Assembly (NCBI GenBank): GCA_017849585.1
Contig: JAFIGT010000015.1
Coordinates: forward strand, 124,001 to 188,000
Length of the DNA stretch: 64,000 nucleotides
Source: Verrucomicrobium sp.
Lineage (GTDB): Bacteria; Verrucomicrobiota; Verrucomicrobiia; Methylacidiphilales; UBA1321
Direction of reading: 5' to 3'
Shown here: positions 40,503 through 53,101 of the stretch, piece by piece
Position numbering within the stretch: position 1 is the stretch's first letter
Layout: each line of letters opens with the position of its first letter
The notes under the pieces: generated by a model
What the model saw: only the letters and a program-made list of their open reading frames with translations
The model's database searches: none
Told to the model about the DNA's origin: nothing
Made by a program: the position numbers and the translations under genes

Positions 40503-40952
40503 ATGGTGAAGTTCAAAGCCGACTTGAAAGCCGCCAAGATTGATTATGTCAATGCGCAGGGTCAACGCGCCGATTTCCATTCGCTCCGCTACACGCTCGC
40601 TACCTATCTCGCTCTGGCGGGCACGCAGCCACGTGTGGCGATGGAGGTCATGCGTCATAGCGATATGCGGCTCACGGCAAACATTTACACCGACTTAGGC
40701 TTGTTACCGACATCAGATGCCGTCTTGAAGCTCCCCTCATTCACAGGTACTGCGTCCAAGCCGCATGACTCACAAATAGACTCACAAAGTTTGTCCCGGA
40801 AGGGTCAATCCCTGACCCGCCCTGTCACAAAGTCGCTCCAAAACGCGAACTCGCAATACACTGATAATGAGGAGGATGGACTTGAATTGTCCGGCGCTGG
40901 CGCGACTAGTCCAGAAAATGAAAATGGCTGCCGCGCTAGGACTCGAACCTAG
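40503..40952 (+). pseudogene. Tyrosine recombinase C-terminal fragment 2, ending at the att site
   Basis: This fragment encodes FHSLRYTLATYLALAGTQPR and VMRHSDMRLTANIYTDLG, again only the catalytic C-terminus of an integrase, followed by a tail that runs into the tRNA-derived repeat (NGCRARTRT). An integrase whose 3' end abuts the attachment site indicates an earlier element at the same tRNA, in the opposite orientation to the present one. Its sequence is related to, but different from, fragment 1. Confidence 0.8.
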
Positions 40953-40954
40953 AA
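40924..40954 (+). repeat. Attachment-site direct repeat, left (att)
   Basis: A 31-bp sequence beginning ATGGCTGCCGCG is identical to 51361-51391. It is a copy of the tRNA-Gln 3' end (CCA, acceptor strand, T-arm) without the rest of the tRNA. The flanking bases on both sides differ between the two copies, so 31 bp is the full identity. Confidence 0.92.
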
Positions 40955-41029
40955 TACTTTTTATAGCCCTTTTATTTCTGCATCTTACTCTATACGAATT
41001 AGAAAGAACGACATTGAATTACGGCGAAT

Positions 41030-41050
41030 GTTATGCAATTCTGTTATGCA
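41030..41050 (+). repeat. Paired integrase arm-type sites, left end
   Basis: GTTATGCA occurs at 41030-41037 and 41043-41050, 13 bp apart. The same pair with the same 13-bp spacing and orientation occurs at the right end (51305-51325). The pair covers the stretch just before the likely integrase start, so it could also repress the integrase gene. Confidence 0.7.
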
Positions 41051-41053
41051 GAT

Positions 41054-42205
41054 ATGGCGTCTCTTCACAAACAGCCGGGCAGGCCTTTTTGGTTCGCCGC
41101 CTACACCGATCATACTGGCAAACGACATTTCAAATCGACCAAATGCGCCGATAAGAAACAGGCCCGTGCCGTTGCAACGGAATGGGAAAGAGCCGTAAGG
41201 GAGGCTAGACGCGGATTACTTACGCCAGAAAAGGCCCGCGACATCATCGCACGAGGTGTGGCCGAGGTATTCGCCGTTGCCAATAAGGAAACCTTGCCTG
41301 AGTCTAAATTGGGCGTTTGGCTAGACCGCTGGTTGGAAACAAAGAGCGTGGAAGCATCCCCCAGCACATTGAAGCGATACACAGACATCATCGAGAGCTT
41401 CCGCAAATATGCGGCAAAGCACCTTGAACAAGATATCGCCAGCATCAGCGCAACGACTATTGCCGCATGGCGAGACACCGAGGCAAAGCGACTGTCTCGT
41501 GCGAGTGTAAATCTTGCGCTAAAAACGGTTCGCTCGTGTTTTAGCGATGCCTTGAAGCAAGGACTTCTCACGGCCAATCCTGCCGGGCAGGTTCCCATCT
41601 TAAAGAATACGGGAGCTAGCGCACGTAGGGAATTCACCATTGCCGAAATTAAGCGACTTCGCGAGAAAGGCGATGATGAATGGAAAGGAATGATCCTCTT
41701 TGGCCTTTATACTGGTCAACGTCTAGGCGATTTAGCTCGCCTTACTTGGCGCAATGTTGACACGGAACGCAATGAAATTGCCCTATCTACTCAAAAGACA
41801 GGCCGAAGAATCGTGCTGCCAATTGTGAAACCGTTGCAAGATTTCATCGCAACACTCGAGTCTTCCGATAATCCTGACGCCTTCCTATTCCCATCGAAGG
41901 CCGCAGCGTACAAAGCTGGCAGTCTGTCGGGGCAATTTTACAATTTACTGGTAGATACGGGAATGGCAAAAGCTCGCACCCACGTTAAGGCGAAGGACGG
42001 CAGAAATGCTAAACGAGAAAAGTCGCAAATCTCCTTCCACTCCCTACGCCATTCAGCCGTGACTTTCTTAAAGGCAGCGGGTGTCTCTGACGCGCTGGCT
42101 CGTGAAATTATCGGTCATGAATCGGCGGCAGTATCACGCGCATACACTCACTTGAGCAATGAGGATATTGCAAAAGCACTCAACAAGCTACCGGACATCA
42201 CATGA
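41054..42205 (+). CDS. int: Tyrosine recombinase / phage integrase
   Basis: The likely start is ATG 41054 (MASLHKQPGRPFW), since the upstream ATG at 41033 lies within the paired arm-type repeats. The N-terminal part is an arm-binding domain, then a SAM-like core-binding domain (SPSTLKRYTDIIESFRKYAA) and the catalytic domain with R223, K248, H329-R332 (FHSLRH), H355 (IIGHES) and Y364 (RAYTH). All catalytic residues are present, so it is probably active. It would integrate and excise the element at tRNA-Gln. It reads away from the left repeat and overlaps the next gene by 4 bp. Confidence 0.95.
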   Translation: MASLHKQPGRPFWFAAYTDHTGKRHFKSTKCADKKQARAVATEWERAVREARRGLLTPEKARDIIARGVAEVFAVANKETLPESKLGVWLDRWLETKSVEASPSTLKRYTDIIESFRKYAAKHLEQDIASISATTIAAWRDTEAKRLSRASVNLALKTVRSCFSDALKQGLLTANPAGQVPILKNTGASARREFTIAEIKRLREKGDDEWKGMILFGLYTGQRLGDLARLTWRNVDTERNEIALSTQKTGRRIVLPIVKPLQDFIATLESSDNPDAFLFPSKAAAYKAGSLSGQFYNLLVDTGMAKARTHVKAKDGRNAKREKSQISFHSLRHSAVTFLKAAGVSDALAREIIGHESAAVSRAYTHLSNEDIAKALNKLPDIT

Positions 42206-43177: not shown

Positions 43178-44080
43178 ATGTTTATGATCGATACTATTAC
43201 CTTCAAATGTTATTGGCAGCTTACCTCTATGACCGGCGAATACTGGCTATTTACCCGAATAGCAAGAGACTTGCCTGTTCCTGATGGAGACGAGGAAGGT
43301 TGCACCAGCATAACCTTCACAGCATACCATCAAATTCTTGGCATTCACATTCAAGGTCATGGGAACCACATAACATCCGTTAACGTGTCCCTACCTCGCA
43401 TAATTCATGGAGAAAACGCGACACTGATTGAAAATCAAGAGCAGATTGATACGGCACTCGAGCATCTGATAGATATAGTAGGGGGTATTGCAGATACCTC
43501 CTCCCCTATCCTCTATTTCACACGAGTAGATTTGTGTTGGCACTTCCAACATTCACCCGCTTCCCTAATTCGAGCGCATAGGCACTGTGTCTTTCCTCGG
43601 TGCCAGATTAAGAGACGCGAGTTTAGTGAACGCTCCGCTTCATGGGACTATAGCGATAAGCGGATCATCATGTACGACAAGCGGTTTAAGGAGTTGAAGA
43701 GGCCGGGGGATATTGTGCGTGTCGAAGTTCAGCTACGAGGCAAGTGCTTGAAAAGATACTTGGCTAATGGTGAAGAAGACGTTACCCAACTTCGGTTTGC
43801 GCTCGGATACCAAGCTTTTCGTGAAATCATGACGACCTTTGCACCATCGGTTATTGTAAACAGTTCCAATAACATCTACGAAGGCCTCGCCAATCTGGAG
43901 AATCGAGTTCTCGCTGCTGGGCTGGAATCCCCTATTGAATCATTCCTCACTAGCATCAATAGCAGAACAGCCCGTGACTGGAGAAAGCGCATGACTGCGG
44001 CGCATTTGCGGGTAGAGAACTTCCAATGGGAAAATGTTCTACCGGAAATCGAAACACCCGCTCCCATACAGGGCTATTAA
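43178..44080 (+). CDS. Replication-initiator-like protein (filamentous-phage gpII/CRI type)
   Basis: The 300-residue protein has a middle section YDKRFKELKRPGDIVRVEVQLR with KCLKRYL, the pattern of Phage_CRI/gpII-type replication initiators of filamentous phages and plasmids. The region before it (SPILYFTRVDLCWHF) is also similar in style. A catalytic Tyr and HUH-like histidines are not located with confidence. It may nick the excised circle and start replication. Low-to-moderate confidence; a plasmid-type Rep is the alternative. Confidence 0.5.
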   Translation: MFMIDTITFKCYWQLTSMTGEYWLFTRIARDLPVPDGDEEGCTSITFTAYHQILGIHIQGHGNHITSVNVSLPRIIHGENATLIENQEQIDTALEHLIDIVGGIADTSSPILYFTRVDLCWHFQHSPASLIRAHRHCVFPRCQIKRREFSERSASWDYSDKRIIMYDKRFKELKRPGDIVRVEVQLRGKCLKRYLANGEEDVTQLRFALGYQAFREIMTTFAPSVIVNSSNNIYEGLANLENRVLAAGLESPIESFLTSINSRTARDWRKRMTAAHLRVENFQWENVLPEIETPAPIQGY

Positions 44081-44094
44081 AGACCTGCGAAAAA

Positions 44095-44109
44095 TTGCAA
44101 CAGTTGCAA
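44095..44109. repeat. TTGCAACAGTTGCAA repeat, left of the terminase pair
   Basis: This 15-bp near-palindrome (arms TTGCAA, spacer CAG) ends 3 bp before the small-terminase ATG. An identical copy in the same orientation follows the large-terminase gene at 45820-45834. It may be an operator or recombination site. Confidence 0.65.
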
Positions 44110-44112
44110 AAT

Positions 44113-44523
44113 ATGACTAATTCACGAAAAGGTAGACCTACAAAAAGAACTCCTCGACTAGAGGCTAGTCTTCTCAAGTCGATTGAAGATGGACTTCCTC
44201 TATGTCACGCCGCCGCTGCGGCAGGTATCTCTTACGAGACATTCTGCGATTGGAGGCGACAATTTCCTGAGTTTTCTGATGCCATCTCAAAGGCGATAGC
44301 TAGGGGAGTCTCTCATCGTCTTCGGATTGTTCGAAAGGCAATGGAGTCCGGCGACGTGAAGGCTGCGCAATGGTGGCTGGAGCATGTCATTCCTGAACAC
44401 TTTGCCAAGAATCGCGTAGAACTATCCCATCAAGGCAGCATTGAGCATCAATTTGCAATTCCTACTGCTTTGATGGAGGAAATCGCTCGTGCCCGCGCAG
44501 AATATGATCAGGCACAAAACTAA
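44113..44523 (+). CDS. Terminase small subunit-like protein
   Basis: ATG 44113 (MTNSRKGRPTKRTPRLE) gives 136 residues. A helix-turn-helix (SIEDGLPLCHAAAAAGISYETFCDWRRQ) is followed by helices (SHRLRIVRKAMESGDVKAAQWWLEH) and EHFAKNRVEL, typical of small terminase subunits that recognise packaging sites. It overlaps the large subunit gene by 20 bp. In satellites, a private small terminase diverts packaging to the satellite genome. Confidence 0.8.
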   Translation: MTNSRKGRPTKRTPRLEASLLKSIEDGLPLCHAAAAAGISYETFCDWRRQFPEFSDAISKAIARGVSHRLRIVRKAMESGDVKAAQWWLEHVIPEHFAKNRVELSHQGSIEHQFAIPTALMEEIARARAEYDQAQN

Positions 44524-45796
44524 GGAATCGTTTCTGCTGTCAACCCCCTATGGATTCGTTAGGGGAATCTTACAGCTTCCAACGTATCCTTGGCTTGACG
44601 CAATCTATCATGATTTGGACAAAACCGGGGCAGTCGCGGTTAAAGCATGTAATGGAGCGGGGAAAACAACACGTATCGGTGCCCCTATGGCTTTGTGGCA
44701 TGCCAGCGTGTTCCCCAATAGCTTGGTAGTGGCGACGGCTGGGGTATTCCGGCAAGTGAAAGAGCAGATGTTCTCGGTATTGCGTTCGTATGCAAAACTG
44801 TTTACAGGAGCGGAATTTCTTGAAGCCTCAGTTACATTTTCAAATGGAAGTCGTATTCTGGGATTCTCCACTGATGAACCGGGTAATTTTGAAGGTTTCC
44901 ATAACGATCATCTATTGGTGATAGTAGATGAGGCGAAAAGCGTGCCTGACTCGATCTTCGAGGCCATTGAACGGTGCCAGCCACAGAGAACGCTGGTAAT
45001 GAGCAGTCCCGGCGGCCCACAAGGAGCCTTTTATCGCGCTTTTACTCGTGATAGGAAGCACTACAGGCTCCACACGGTAACAGCGCAGGACTGTCCACAT
45101 CTATCCCCAGCTTGGATCAATGAACAGATAGAAAAGCATGGAGCCGATTCCCCGCTAGTTCGCTCGATGATTTTTGCAGAATTTATGGAGCAAGACGGAC
45201 TGTACTGTCCTTTGTCGATCGCTCAGTTGGAGCGATGTTTACGGGAACCGCCGCCATATCAGCCCGGTATCGTCAACGCCTTCTGCGACTTTGCTGCTGG
45301 AGGAGATGAGAACGTACTAGCCATTGCACGAGGCAATAAAGTGGTGATTGCTGCGGCGTGGAAGGACGGCGATACCATGCGCAGCATTGGAAAATTCATC
45401 CAGCATTTTCGAGAGCACGGATTGAAACCGTCACAGATAGCTTGCGATGGGAGCGGCTTGGGAATTCCGATGTGTGATCGCTTAAAAGAAAGCGGTTGGC
45501 CAGTTCGCAGAATCAACAACGGCACCCCGGCCAAAGACACGCACTCTTACGCCAATTTAGGAGCGGAAATCTGGATGACTGGCGTGCGTAAAATTGAGCG
45601 CGGCGAAGTAATACTGCCGGATGACCCTCTATTGTTCTCACAGCTAACCGCTCGAGAAGCATTCCCTAACAGCCGGGGGCAAATCATTCTAGAATCCAAG
45701 GAACAGATGCGATCTCGAGGCCTTACCAGCCCAGATCGAGCTGATGCAGTTTTAGGATGCCTATACAAAAGAGCCTCAATACTTACTTACGCTTAA
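44504..45796 (+). CDS. Terminase large subunit
   Basis: The ATPase domain has a Walker A motif (CNGAGKTTR, about residues 49-57), Walker B (LLVIVDEAKS) and a coupling segment MSSPGGPQG. The C-terminal RNase H-like nuclease begins FCDFAAGGDENVLAIARG with its catalytic Asp, with GSGLGIPMCDRL and SPDRADAVLG near the end. The protein is about 430 residues, full length for a compact large terminase. The start is ATG 44504 or GTG 44489. It translocates DNA into a capsid, yet no capsid or portal gene is present, so a helper phage would have to supply them. Confidence 0.9.
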   Translation: MIRHKTKESFLLSTPYGFVRGILQLPTYPWLDAIYHDLDKTGAVAVKACNGAGKTTRIGAPMALWHASVFPNSLVVATAGVFRQVKEQMFSVLRSYAKLFTGAEFLEASVTFSNGSRILGFSTDEPGNFEGFHNDHLLVIVDEAKSVPDSIFEAIERCQPQRTLVMSSPGGPQGAFYRAFTRDRKHYRLHTVTAQDCPHLSPAWINEQIEKHGADSPLVRSMIFAEFMEQDGLYCPLSIAQLERCLREPPPYQPGIVNAFCDFAAGGDENVLAIARGNKVVIAAAWKDGDTMRSIGKFIQHFREHGLKPSQIACDGSGLGIPMCDRLKESGWPVRRINNGTPAKDTHSYANLGAEIWMTGVRKIERGEVILPDDPLLFSQLTAREAFPNSRGQIILESKEQMRSRGLTSPDRADAVLGCLYKRASILTYA

Positions 45797-48054: not shown

Positions 48055-49458
48055 ATGCCCACGACAACAATGCTGGCGGTGAAAGACTTATCGCTGGATT
48101 TGCACAATTATCGGACGGTTCCTAAAAAGAATGAGTCGGAGGCAATCTCCGCGATGATTTCTCTTAGCCCTGATCGCTTTTGGGCCGTAATGCGTAGCAT
48201 TTTGGAAGATGGATACTTGCCGACAGAAAATATTTTAATTTTAAGAAAAAACCAAAAAGGAACTCTTCTCAATATCGTAAAAGAAGGCAATAGGCGCGTC
48301 GCCGCACTTAAGTTGATATTTGGGTACGTGAGACGATCCACATTTAACATTCCCGAAGACCTTGAATCTAAAATTCAAGGTTTGACCAAAGAATGGAAAG
48401 GCACCAATCAATCGATAGCTTGTGCTGTCTATTTGGAAAAAGAAGCGCATATTGTCGATAAGATCGTTAGCTTAACTCATGGCAAAAGCCAGCAAGCTGG
48501 AAGAGATGGATGGAAGTCGATCGCTAGAGCTAGACATAATCGAGATGAAAATAAGGCTACTGAGCCTGGACTGGATGTTCTCGAAAAATATCTCAAAAAA
48601 ACGAACGACTTATCTCAGACAGAAATCGATCGTTGGAGTGGCAGCTATTCCGTTACGGTACTTGATGAGGCCTTAAAGAATCTAGCTCCTCGCTGCGGAT
48701 ATCAATCTGCTAAAGATCTGTCAGAAAAGTATCCCAATATCGATAAATATCGGCAGCCTCTTGATAAAGTTATCAAGCAAATCGGATACGACCTCTTAAG
48801 TTTTTCGCATATTCGTGATGAGGAAAATGATTTTGCTGAACAGTACGGATTCCCTAGTAAGCCCAAGACTTCGAAAAATGACGAGCCCGGCAAATCTATA
48901 GATGAAAAAGAAAGCGAATCGAGTGCCGACGGAAACTCCAGTGAGAGCGCAGCAAAAAGTAAAGGCGAGAAAGATGATGAAACTCCTCGTAAGCCGAGAG
49001 CATCGGCAACAGATGACGTGCGGACAGTAAAAAAGAAACTGCGAAGCATGGTTGTTCGCGGGAAAAATAGGGAGAAGGTTGTAACTCTGCAAAATGAGAT
49101 TTTGAAACTCGATATCAGGGTACATCCCCACGCCTTCTGCTTTGTATTGCGTAGCATGTTCGAAATCTCGGCTAAGGCGTTTAGCGGAGAGAATAAGTTA
49201 CCTCATCTCGACAATAAGGGACGAGAGTTATCCCTAAAGGATATGCTGAGAAATATCACAACACACCTGACTCTGAATAATAAAGAAAGAGAGAAGGAAC
49301 TGCATGGGGCTATGTCCGAACTTGCTAAGAGCGATGGCATGTTGTCGGTGACTTCTATGAATCAATTAGTACACAATAAAAGTTTTTCGGTCAAAGATAC
49401 GCACATAAGCGCCCTTTTCTCAAATGTATTTCCATTGCTGGAGGCAATGAATAGCTAA
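48055..49458 (+). CDS. ParB-like N-terminal domain protein
   Basis: ATG 48055 (MPTTTMLAVKDLSLDLHNYR) is preferred over an in-frame TTG at 48037. Residues about 5-90 form a ParB/sulfiredoxin-like domain (VKDLSLDLHNYR, YLPTENILILRK, then VKEGNRRVAALKLI in place of GERR). A long Ser/Glu/Lys-rich linker (about 280-330) leads to a C-terminal helical region. It overlaps the methylase gene by 1 bp, so the two are translationally coupled. In ParB-like nucleases and many defence proteins this domain binds or cleaves DNA; its exact activity here is unknown. Confidence 0.7.
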   Translation: MPTTTMLAVKDLSLDLHNYRTVPKKNESEAISAMISLSPDRFWAVMRSILEDGYLPTENILILRKNQKGTLLNIVKEGNRRVAALKLIFGYVRRSTFNIPEDLESKIQGLTKEWKGTNQSIACAVYLEKEAHIVDKIVSLTHGKSQQAGRDGWKSIARARHNRDENKATEPGLDVLEKYLKKTNDLSQTEIDRWSGSYSVTVLDEALKNLAPRCGYQSAKDLSEKYPNIDKYRQPLDKVIKQIGYDLLSFSHIRDEENDFAEQYGFPSKPKTSKNDEPGKSIDEKESESSADGNSSESAAKSKGEKDDETPRKPRASATDDVRTVKKKLRSMVVRGKNREKVVTLQNEILKLDIRVHPHAFCFVLRSMFEISAKAFSGENKLPHLDNKGRELSLKDMLRNITTHLTLNNKEREKELHGAMSELAKSDGMLSVTSMNQLVHNKSFSVKDTHISALFSNVFPLLEAMNS

Positions 49459-50327
49459 TGAGTGCCTTGCGAACCCCATTGCGCTATCCGGGCGGCAAAC
49501 AAAAATTGGCACCTTTTGTCGTAGAGGTTTTGGAAGAGAATAATTTAGTGAGCGGCCATTATGCGGAGCCCTACGCAGGCGGGGCCGGTGTCGGGATCGC
49601 TCTTTTGCTTGAAAATAAAGTTTCGCATATCCATTTAAATGATAGCTGCCCTAGAGTATATGCCTTTTGGCGATCTATTTTAGATCACACGGAGGAATTT
49701 TGCCGAAGAATTATTGGCGCATCGCTGACGATAGCAGAGTGGAAGCGACAGAAAGAAATCTTTAGTAGACCTGATGAATTCGATGTACTGGACTTAGGAT
49801 TCAGCATGTTTTTCCTCAATCGATGCAATCGTTCCGGGATTGCCTCTGCTGGTGTTATCGGTGGAATAAATCAAGATGGAAGATGGAAGATTGATGCTAG
49901 ATTTCCTAAAGGGGAACTCATTCGTAGAATTCAGTCGATTGCTTCAAAGAGAAATGACATCACATTAAAAAACTGGGATGCCGAACGTTTTTTAAAGCGG
50001 CATGTTTCTAAATTGCCGAAAAAGTCCCTGATTTATTGCGATCCTCCATATTTTAATAAGGCAGATCGCCTTTACCTTAACTACTATAAAGAGGAGGATC
50101 ATGTACGTTTGGCTAAGCTTGTCCAAAAAGAGCTTAAGCATCCATGGCTAGTTTCTTACGATAACTCCCCACAAATCGCCAAACTCTATCAAAAACGGAA
50201 TAGCTTTATATACGATTTACAGTATAACGCAGCGAAAGCGTATAAAGGAAAGGAGCTGTTTGTTTTTTCCGATAACATCCATTTACCATCAAAATCGTGT
50301 GTGCCCGCAATTAATGCAGTGCTCTAA
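49458..50327 (+). CDS. DNA adenine methylase (Dam/D12 class)
   Basis: This 289-residue enzyme has the D12-class motifs: PLRYPGGKQKL (11-14 core PGGK), the AdoMet-binding AEPYAGGAGVG, and catalytic DPPY at 195-198 (IYCDPPYFN). It methylates N6 of adenine in DNA. The target sequence is unknown. It has no restriction endonuclease in the classical sense beside it, but the ParB-like protein upstream and the HNH-like protein downstream are candidates for partners. Confidence 0.92.
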   Translation: MSALRTPLRYPGGKQKLAPFVVEVLEENNLVSGHYAEPYAGGAGVGIALLLENKVSHIHLNDSCPRVYAFWRSILDHTEEFCRRIIGASLTIAEWKRQKEIFSRPDEFDVLDLGFSMFFLNRCNRSGIASAGVIGGINQDGRWKIDARFPKGELIRRIQSIASKRNDITLKNWDAERFLKRHVSKLPKKSLIYCDPPYFNKADRLYLNYYKEEDHVRLAKLVQKELKHPWLVSYDNSPQIAKLYQKRNSFIYDLQYNAAKAYKGKELFVFSDNIHLPSKSCVPAINAVL

Positions 50328-50328
50328 G

Positions 50329-50370
50329 GTATGGAGTAAAACTGTCGAAATATTCTCTTAATCTCCATAC
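50329..50370. repeat. Inverted repeat after the methylase gene
   Basis: GTATGGAG (50329-50336) and CTCCATAC (50363-50370) are perfect 8-bp inverted arms around a 26-base AT-rich loop, directly after the methylase stop and followed by eight A residues. The A-run is on the wrong side for a terminator of the plus-strand gene, so its role is open. Nothing else is seen in 50371-50555. Confidence 0.45.
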
Positions 50371-50555
50371 AAAAAAAACTTTTCCTTTTACCAGCTCGTC
50401 GATTGCTTTGTTGATTTGGCAATCTATTCTTGGACTGCTACACAGAACGGTTAGTCTAGCTTTCATACCACCAGCATCCTTCAACGGTTTATCGCTAGAA
50501 ACTCAATTCGCGATTTAATCCCCCCCTCTTATCCGGCCTTAGCTGGAATTTAAAA

Positions 50556-51251
50556 ATGAGCACTTGTGCACTTTGTCTACAAGAGAGAAGACTATGCAAA
50601 TCTCACATTGTACCCGAGTTTATATTTTCAAAACTTTATGGGCCAGATCATGAGTACCATGTCCTTAGCGCAAAGTCGCCAGAAAGGGTGATTCGACGAA
50701 GTTTATCCGAAAAATTGCTCTGCCTAGAATGTGAACGAAAAATCTCAAACTGGGAAGGTTATGCCGCAAGCGTCATTTATGGAGATGCTCTATTACGCGG
50801 CAGGCGGGAGGGTCATCTCCTGATTATGGAAGGACTCCAATATAGTCCGTTGAAGCTTTTTTTAATGTCACTGCTTTGGCGATCATCTGTGACGTCTATT
50901 AAAGAGCTGCGCGTGGGCAATCTTAATATTCATCAAGAAATGCTCCGCATGATGTTGATTAACGAGAATCCGGGCGAGCCATGGCAGTATGGATGCCTCT
51001 TTACTGCAGTCATGCTTGGAAATAAACCTGCCAACGTAATTTTCGCTCCAAGTCCTGCTAAGATTGATGGCTACCAATGTTGGCGATTGGTCATTGGCGG
51101 ATTTTTACTTTCATTTGCCGTCGCGAGTCATCCTCTACCTGAAGGAGTGACGAAAGGGTTCCTACAGAAGAACGGAACAATGGTAATTTCGCGTCGAGAA
51201 CTGCATGAAGTCCCTTATTTAGTCGATATAATGCAAAGCTTCGATAAATAA
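50556..51251 (+). CDS. HNH-like zinc protein with CxxC / SHIVPEF motif
   Basis: The product has 231 residues. The N-terminus reads CALCLQERRLCKSHIVPEF, then LLCLECERKISNWEG: two CxxC pairs around a Ser-His-Ile-x-Pro element, resembling HNH_5-type domains (C-x-x-C, EHIIP, C-x-x-C-N) with the first His replaced in context. A metal site is likely; nuclease activity is uncertain because the expected catalytic residues are only partly conserved. The rest is a helical domain of unknown fold. It follows the ParB-like and methylase genes and precedes the right att site, so all three form one cargo module. Confidence 0.6.
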   Translation: MSTCALCLQERRLCKSHIVPEFIFSKLYGPDHEYHVLSAKSPERVIRRSLSEKLLCLECERKISNWEGYAASVIYGDALLRGRREGHLLIMEGLQYSPLKLFLMSLLWRSSVTSIKELRVGNLNIHQEMLRMMLINENPGEPWQYGCLFTAVMLGNKPANVIFAPSPAKIDGYQCWRLVIGGFLLSFAVASHPLPEGVTKGFLQKNGTMVISRRELHEVPYLVDIMQSFDK

Positions 51252-51360: not shown

Positions 51361-51391
51361 ATGGCTGCCGCGCTAGGACTCGAACCTAGAA
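51361..51391 (+). repeat. Attachment-site direct repeat, right (att), within tRNA-Gln
   Basis: The second copy of the 31-bp repeat. It covers the 3' half of the intact tRNA-Gln gene (CCA, acceptor strand and T-arm), so insertion keeps the tRNA functional while the left copy is a truncated duplicate. Confidence 0.92.
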
Positions 51392-51437
51392 CACCCAGAT
51401 CCAGAATCTGGTGTGCTACCAATTGCACCACGCGGCA
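51362..51437 (-). tRNA. tRNA-Gln (anticodon CTG)
   Basis: On the minus strand the sequence folds into a complete cloverleaf: acceptor TGCCGCG/CGCGGCA, D-stem GTGC/GCAC, anticodon stem CCAGA/TCTGG with loop TTCTGGA (anticodon CTG), T-arm CTAGG/CCTAG with TTCGAGT, discriminator G and an encoded CCA end. It reads CAG codons. It is the attachment site of the adjacent element, and no gene is seen in 51438-51636. Confidence 0.95.
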
Positions 51438-51636: not shown

Positions 51637-53101
51637 TTAGAACTGGATGGTCAGGCTGTTATAAAATGTTCGCTCCGCGCCTGCCACGGACTGCAGCGGC
51701 GCATTATAGTTGCTGGCTTGGAAGTTATCGAAGTTCACTCCGCACAGTGGTTGGTAGTAGAACTTGTCCATCACGTTATCGATCCCGGCGTTCAGTCGTA
51801 CATGGGGCCATTGGTAGCCGGTGCGGAGGTTTAACAACGCGTAGCCGGGTGTCGTCGGTTCGTTGCGTAGTCCATCGACTTCGGTCTTGGAATCGACCAT
51901 CTGAACCTCGATGGCGCTGGTCCAACGGCCGAGCGTTTCCTCCAGGGCGACGGTGGCATGAAGCGGCATCATGTGATAAAGGTCGTCGCCGTCGAGGGTT
52001 TCACCGCGAACCCAGCCGGCCACGCCACGGATTTGGCCATGACCAAAAGTGTCATTGTTCCAGAGCTGTTTTTTCCACTTTAAGTCGACACCGTAAAGCT
52101 GGGCGTCATGATTGGCAAAGAGGAGCTGTGAGCGAACGCTTTGGCCGCTGTAGATGGTGCCAAAGCGGTCGACGTTAATGTAGTCCTTGACGTAAGAATA
52201 ATAGGGTGTGACGGCAACTTCCCAATCTTTGCGAGCGCTGTCGTGCCAGTTGGTGGTGACGCTGAAGGTATGTGCGACTTCACTTTTGAGGTCGAGGTTT
52301 CCGGTGTAGTAGTTGCCGTCTCCGAACCAATTGACCATCTCGGCGGCCATCTTTACCTTGGACCAGGCATAGCGTTCGTAGAGACTTGGAGCGCGGCTTT
52401 TACGGGCTTAGCCGATCTCGTATGTGCTGCTTTTTTCTGGTTCGTAACGGGTCAAGGCCGTGAGATCGAAATTGATTTCAGTACGCGCATGGTCTTGAGA
52501 ATTGAATGCGTTGGCATCGGCGGCATACATGGCGGAATACCCCTGCACATTGCCGGTATCCATCCACACGGTGTCGTTTCGAGCGCCGAAAAGGGTCATC
52601 CATTGTTCGTTATACTGGGTTTCCCATTCAGCGAAAAAGGCCAGACGGTTGCGCTCGCCGTTATTGATGTTCACGAACGTGTTGGGCGACATCACCATGC
52701 TGGAGCCGGGAACTTGGGGCCAGGTATCGTCGAGTTCGAAGCGGTGAAACTCATTCCCTACGCGCAGGGTGTGGAGATCGAGAATGGGAATGGTGGCTTT
52801 CAGGGTATATCCGGTATTAATGCCATGGGTATCCATGGGCATCCACATGGGCATCCACATGGGCATCCACATGGGCATGGGAAATGACTCGTTGCGTATG
52901 ACGTCCATCCAGTGGTTGAGGAATCCTTCTTTGGGCGTGGAGTTGAGACCCGCCGTGATCTCACCAAAGTGCTCATCCTTACCTGCTGAAGATTTTTCCC
53001 ATGCCGGCCTGAAAGGAACCCTCCTGGATGGAATAATCTCGAATCATTTCCACCCATGCCACAGAGCTTTCAGGTAGGTGGAGCGAAACACGGGCATAAA
53101 C
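51637..53101 (-). pseudogene. TonB-dependent receptor, decayed
   Basis: Pieces of an outer-membrane receptor barrel remain. At the upstream end a frame encodes VEMIRDYSIQEGSFQAG directly after the stop of the neighbouring gene, then a frameshift near 53000 moves reading to KDEHFGEITAGLNSTPKEG. A TAA at 52408-52410 interrupts YEIG-ARKSRAPSLYERYAW, where an aromatic residue would be expected, and the frame then continues to the C-terminal LNAGIDNVMDKFYYQPL and a final Phe typical of outer-membrane barrels. The plug and N-terminus are absent. A ferric siderophore or metal receptor seems likely given the FTR1-like neighbour. Confidence 0.85.
52837..52878. repeat. 12-bp tandem repeat inside the receptor remnant
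   Basis: GGGCATCCACAT occurs three times in succession (52837-52872) followed by half a unit. On the coding strand it encodes repeated Met-Trp-Met-Pro. It looks like slippage in a gene no longer under selection. Confidence 0.85.

Follow-up and report, generated by a model that had tools for sequence, protein, structure and literature searches.

Introduction

PD-Lambda-5 is an anti-phage system that was found by functional selection in E. coli and provides broad phage protection (Vassallo et al. 2022, PMC9519451). Its discoverers describe it as restriction-modification plus abortive infection in a compacted prophage form (Vassallo et al. 2022, PMC9519451), and it shows a tendency to be prophage-encoded (PMC10482375). 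Its protection is stronger for T-even phages than for lambda, and most restriction-modification systems are ineffective against T4 and T7 (PMC9519451). The system was cloned in an mrr-deleted host (PMC9519451), a choice that would be consistent with DNA methylation by its methylase component, B. A HEPN survey of 2013 had already noted operons that encode a HEPN protein together with a ParB protein and a DNA methylase (PMC3710099).

Here we analyse a locus within a 64,000-nt stretch of DNA (the window; all coordinates are positions in it), where three cargo open reading frames, named A, B and C, lie next to each other. Judged by sequence, A and B are the already named PD-Lambda-5, and what is new is a further copy, carried as satellite cargo. 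As in PD-Lambda-5, two tightly coupled genes with conserved GNRR and DPPY motifs lie on a phage-related mobile element, and the profiles match both genes over their full length. The locus differs in belonging to a diverged subgroup (best model PDLC03997), in its carrier, a satellite-like element of 10.4 kb at a tRNA-Gln gene instead of a P2-like prophage, and in the extra gene C that follows the pair. With the MAE_28990-type operons, in which HEPN stands with a ParB nuclease and a DNA methylase (PMC3710099), it has in common the ParB and methylase theme and a possible HEPN-like part; in those operons, however, HEPN is a separate gene, whereas here the C-terminus of A would supply any HEPN-like part, and it lacks the classical motif.

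Results

The three open reading frames that the preliminary description had joined into one defence module are all present, on the + strand. A occupies 48055-49458, B 49458-50327 and C 50556-51251, and all of them are open, full length and intact in their motifs. The ATG at 48055 is the start of A, which is backed by relatives that open with 'MPTTSQ(I/L)EVSKL'. Base 49458 belongs both to the stop codon of A and to the ATG of B, so that the overlap described earlier between a ParB-like gene and a methylase gene is real and one base long. C begins after a gap of 228 bp in which we found no + strand promoter-like match, and has no translational coupling to B. Across the cargo region as a whole, promoter-like sites were weak only and rarer than in shuffled sequence. 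The G+C content of the cargo is 41-44%, compared to approximately 45-52% elsewhere in the element and 50-54% on either side of it.

A matches the PADLOC model for PD-Lambda-5_A (PDLC03997) over positions 1-490 of 491 with an E-value of 7.7e-178 and 590 bits, and B matches the model for PD-Lambda-5_B (PDLC04018) over its full length with an E-value of 4.9e-117. Since both E-values are below 1e-100, chance is excluded. B additionally matches Pfam PF02086 (D12 methylase, E 7.3e-20), carries an intact 'YCDPPY' motif and has DNA adenine methylases among its PDB matches, in agreement with its earlier assignment as a D12-class adenine methylase and with a predicted role as a DNA N6-adenine methyltransferase. 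A Pfam search of A returned nothing firm. The same PD-Lambda-5_A model set is matched by seven A relatives from other loci, and the A described here has diverged, sharing approximately 16-22% identity with relatives outside its own subgroup. Based on the full-length model matches, the one-base overlap, the intact motifs, the co-inheritance described below and the att-bounded site, A and B very probably constitute a PD-Lambda-5 anti-phage system, which a small integrated phage-satellite-like element carries as cargo at one of its ends. The preliminary description did not recognise the locus as a named system, but both genes match named models along their entire length.

An alignment of 40 A proteins revealed that the N-terminal 'EGNRR' of A resembles ParB box II, and that GNRR is invariant in all 40 relatives. 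It aligns in register with ParB box II, with weak hhalign scores (E 0.003-0.3, low probability), and neither the Pfam ParB nor the Pfam HEPN models match A. The label "ParB-like" refers to this motif-level match, and A is a candidate member of the ParB family. In the C-terminal region, H440 is conserved in 37/40 proteins, and R366 and E370 are also conserved. The classical HEPN motif, Rx4-6H, is absent from A, as there is no arginine 4-6 residues before H440, and the domain is possibly a HEPN derivative. A restriction-endonuclease domain was detectable neither in A nor in its 39 relatives, and a PDB sequence profile search with A gave no meaningful match. The alignment provides a set of residues with which the action of A can be probed, namely GNRR, H142, W153, R366, E370 and H440.

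To follow the two genes across genomes, genome contigs were scanned with the B alignment, yielding 80 loci in bacteria and archaea, and A was sought in these by iterated profiles. A is encoded in 59 of the 80 loci, in 53 of them directly upstream of B on the same strand, and it is present in 58 of the 72 loci with room upstream; the pair is spread from Bacteroidota to archaea. No A was seen in the other 21, some of which are truncated at a contig end. Viral contigs and one Burkholderia record contain the pair as well. In one genome of the same class, A and B lie close to an integrase within a prophage-like region, and the large terminase of that region is a homologue of the one in the element described here. 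No match was obtained when viral and genome contigs were scanned with the A protein alone, and phage and plasmid records yielded either nothing or single weak matches. Co-occurrence in other genomes had been proposed earlier as a check on the three genes together; it is borne out for A and B in those 59 of 80 loci, but in none of the 80 for C.

Two further arrangements were seen among the loci found with B. Of the 21 loci without A, 10 have a gene for an AAA ATPase close to the methylase gene, in most of them directly upstream (L063, L075, L078, L104, L108, L109, L115, L118, L120 and L122), and these may represent a related two-gene variant. A Pedobacter genome encodes two different PD-Lambda-5 pairs in tandem (L058:1935-6876).

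C matches phrog_19960, an uncharacterised phage-protein family, over its residues 1-167 (E 3.1e-23), and had no meaningful match in PADLOC, NCBIfam or Pfam. The family is marked by C-x2-C, S-H-I-x-P and C-x2-C-(E/D) with a conserved His, and C itself carries the CxxC, SHIVPEF and CxxC motifs on which its resemblance to an HNH domain had been based. In HNH enzymes the first His is usually preceded by an acidic residue, and the second CxxC is followed by His or Asn. At these positions C has Ser before the His and Glu (Glu or Asp in the family) after the second CxxC. Thus the motifs stand, but HNH site residues are replaced and no HNH model is found among the Pfam matches. An assignment to the HNH_5 family was rejected after a negative profile alignment with HNH_5 proteins, for which the template comprised three sequences only. 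A PDB sequence profile search with C gave no meaningful match, nor did a single-protein scan of viral contigs. The two CxxC pairs of C likely bind zinc, while a nuclease activity is unsupported.

Neither a profile search nor a six-frame scan for its motifs found C in any of the 80 B loci, 72 of which extend for 1.5 kb or more downstream. Relatives of C, sampled in two phyla, are present in 13/388 genomes (this genome included) and 9/359 genomes, respectively, and neither A nor B lies beside any of the 19 relatives recovered by profile in the neighbourhoods fetched from these phyla. Since C is missing at B loci, and A and B are missing beside C relatives, C is not part of the module; it is a separate passenger gene that shares a cargo slot with A and B by chance. 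In the sampled loci no other combination of C with the pair was seen, and the three-gene module of the preliminary description reduces to a two-gene system and a neighbour.

Most relatives of C are single genes, several of them amid unrelated genes, and occasionally one stands beside another defence operon. A second family copy in the same genome (G000:C3:58161-58895, L018) is broken by a stop codon, and neither A nor B lies near it. At L044:4312-7651 a Lamassu LmuB gene immediately precedes a C relative, and an AbiEii gene is found farther upstream; at L043:4216-12743 another C relative has HerA-like and CBASS genes in its vicinity. These neighbours were picked by eye and do not amount to an enrichment test. 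It is quite unlikely that C represents an unrecognised stand-alone or accessory defence family that joins different systems, PD-Lambda-5 here, Lamassu at L044 and CBASS at L043.

The carrier is delimited by a 34-bp direct repeat. The right copy, attR (51361-51394), lies at the 3' end of a tRNA-Gln gene (51362-51437, - strand) and the left copy, attL (40924-40957), is identical to it at 33 of 34 positions. The integrated element spans the 10.4 kb between the repeats, and A, B and C adjoin its right att site. It encodes a tyrosine integrase (41033-42205, + strand; Pfam Phage_integrase, E 2.7e-20; phrog_1 integrase) and the small (44026-44523, + strand; phrog_4102, E 2.7e-16) and large (44489-45796, + strand; phrog_2, E 6.1e-21) terminase subunits, along with a weak repressor-like match and the cargo. 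Relatives of the large terminase are present in 19 other genomes among the 388 genomes of the phylum that were searched. The repeat at tRNA-Gln, the integrase and the terminase genes uphold the earlier placement of the module beside the att site of a mobile satellite. Because neither a portal nor a capsid gene could be recognised inside the 10.4-kb element, a small phage-satellite-like element is a fair description of what its gene content suggests; the carrier could instead be a shrunken prophage.

A C-terminal integrase fragment of 149 aa (40503-40952) terminates at attL, which would fit use of this tRNA-Gln site by a previous element. To the right of the element, an apparent single outer-membrane-receptor-like gene (51637-52908, - strand) reads as two open reading frames, and a 12-bp tandem repeat lies close to the start of the gene (52834-52878).

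Discussion

From its family and motif, B would methylate adenines in the DNA of the host and of the element, generating N6-methyladenine and marking this DNA as self. A would act as effector or sensor: with its ParB/Srx-like N-terminus it would sense or engage DNA that is unmodified or altered by infection, and with its C-terminal domain, which may derive from HEPN, it would block the infection. We propose that methylated DNA would restrain A, and that unmodified or infection-altered DNA would release it. The earlier suggestion that the methylase marks self DNA while its partners recognise or cut unmodified DNA would fit A and B in its logic, but a role of C as the cutter is unsupported. The proposed anti-phage function probably holds for A and B, as PD-Lambda-5 beside an att site, but does not extend to the third gene.

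Several other readings of the locus were considered. In a three-gene system, B would protect self DNA, A would recognise and C would be an HNH nuclease that cuts unmodified DNA. The shared strand and cargo slot, the short distance of 228 bp between B and C, the two conserved CxxC pairs and conserved His of C, and the C relatives beside a Lamassu LmuB gene and near CBASS genes are in keeping with such a system. We nevertheless regard it as extremely unlikely, given that C is missing from 80/80 B loci and A and B from the surroundings of 19/19 C relatives, that C matches no HNH model and aligned negatively with HNH_5, and that it is not coupled to B in translation. A decayed or silent cargo, with the methylase merely serving the element in restriction evasion, would agree with the scarcity of promoter-like sites, and orphan adenine methylases are common in phages; it is very improbable in view of the open, full-length reading frames with intact motifs, and of the presence of A, a partner that a true orphan would not have.

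It is unlikely that A and B form an ordinary type II-like restriction-modification pair, with A as a DNA endonuclease specific for sites that B has not methylated. The gene order and the cognate methylase suit this arrangement, and DNA nicking is possible for ParB/Srx-fold proteins according to literature cited in PMC12839542. Against it stand the lack of a restriction-endonuclease domain throughout the 40 A proteins, the stronger protection by PD-Lambda-5 against T-even phages than against lambda, and the resistance of T4 and T7 to most restriction-modification systems (PMC9519451). PD-Lambda-5, with C as a bystander, is therefore the reading that we retain.

As a known two-gene system next to an unrelated third gene, the find is real and largely ordinary, and reading it as two genes keeps a false three-gene "new system" off the record. 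It puts a known defence system of open mechanism into the cargo slot of a small element with terminase genes, and the occurrence of PD-Lambda-5 as satellite cargo agrees with its travel on prophages and their relatives.
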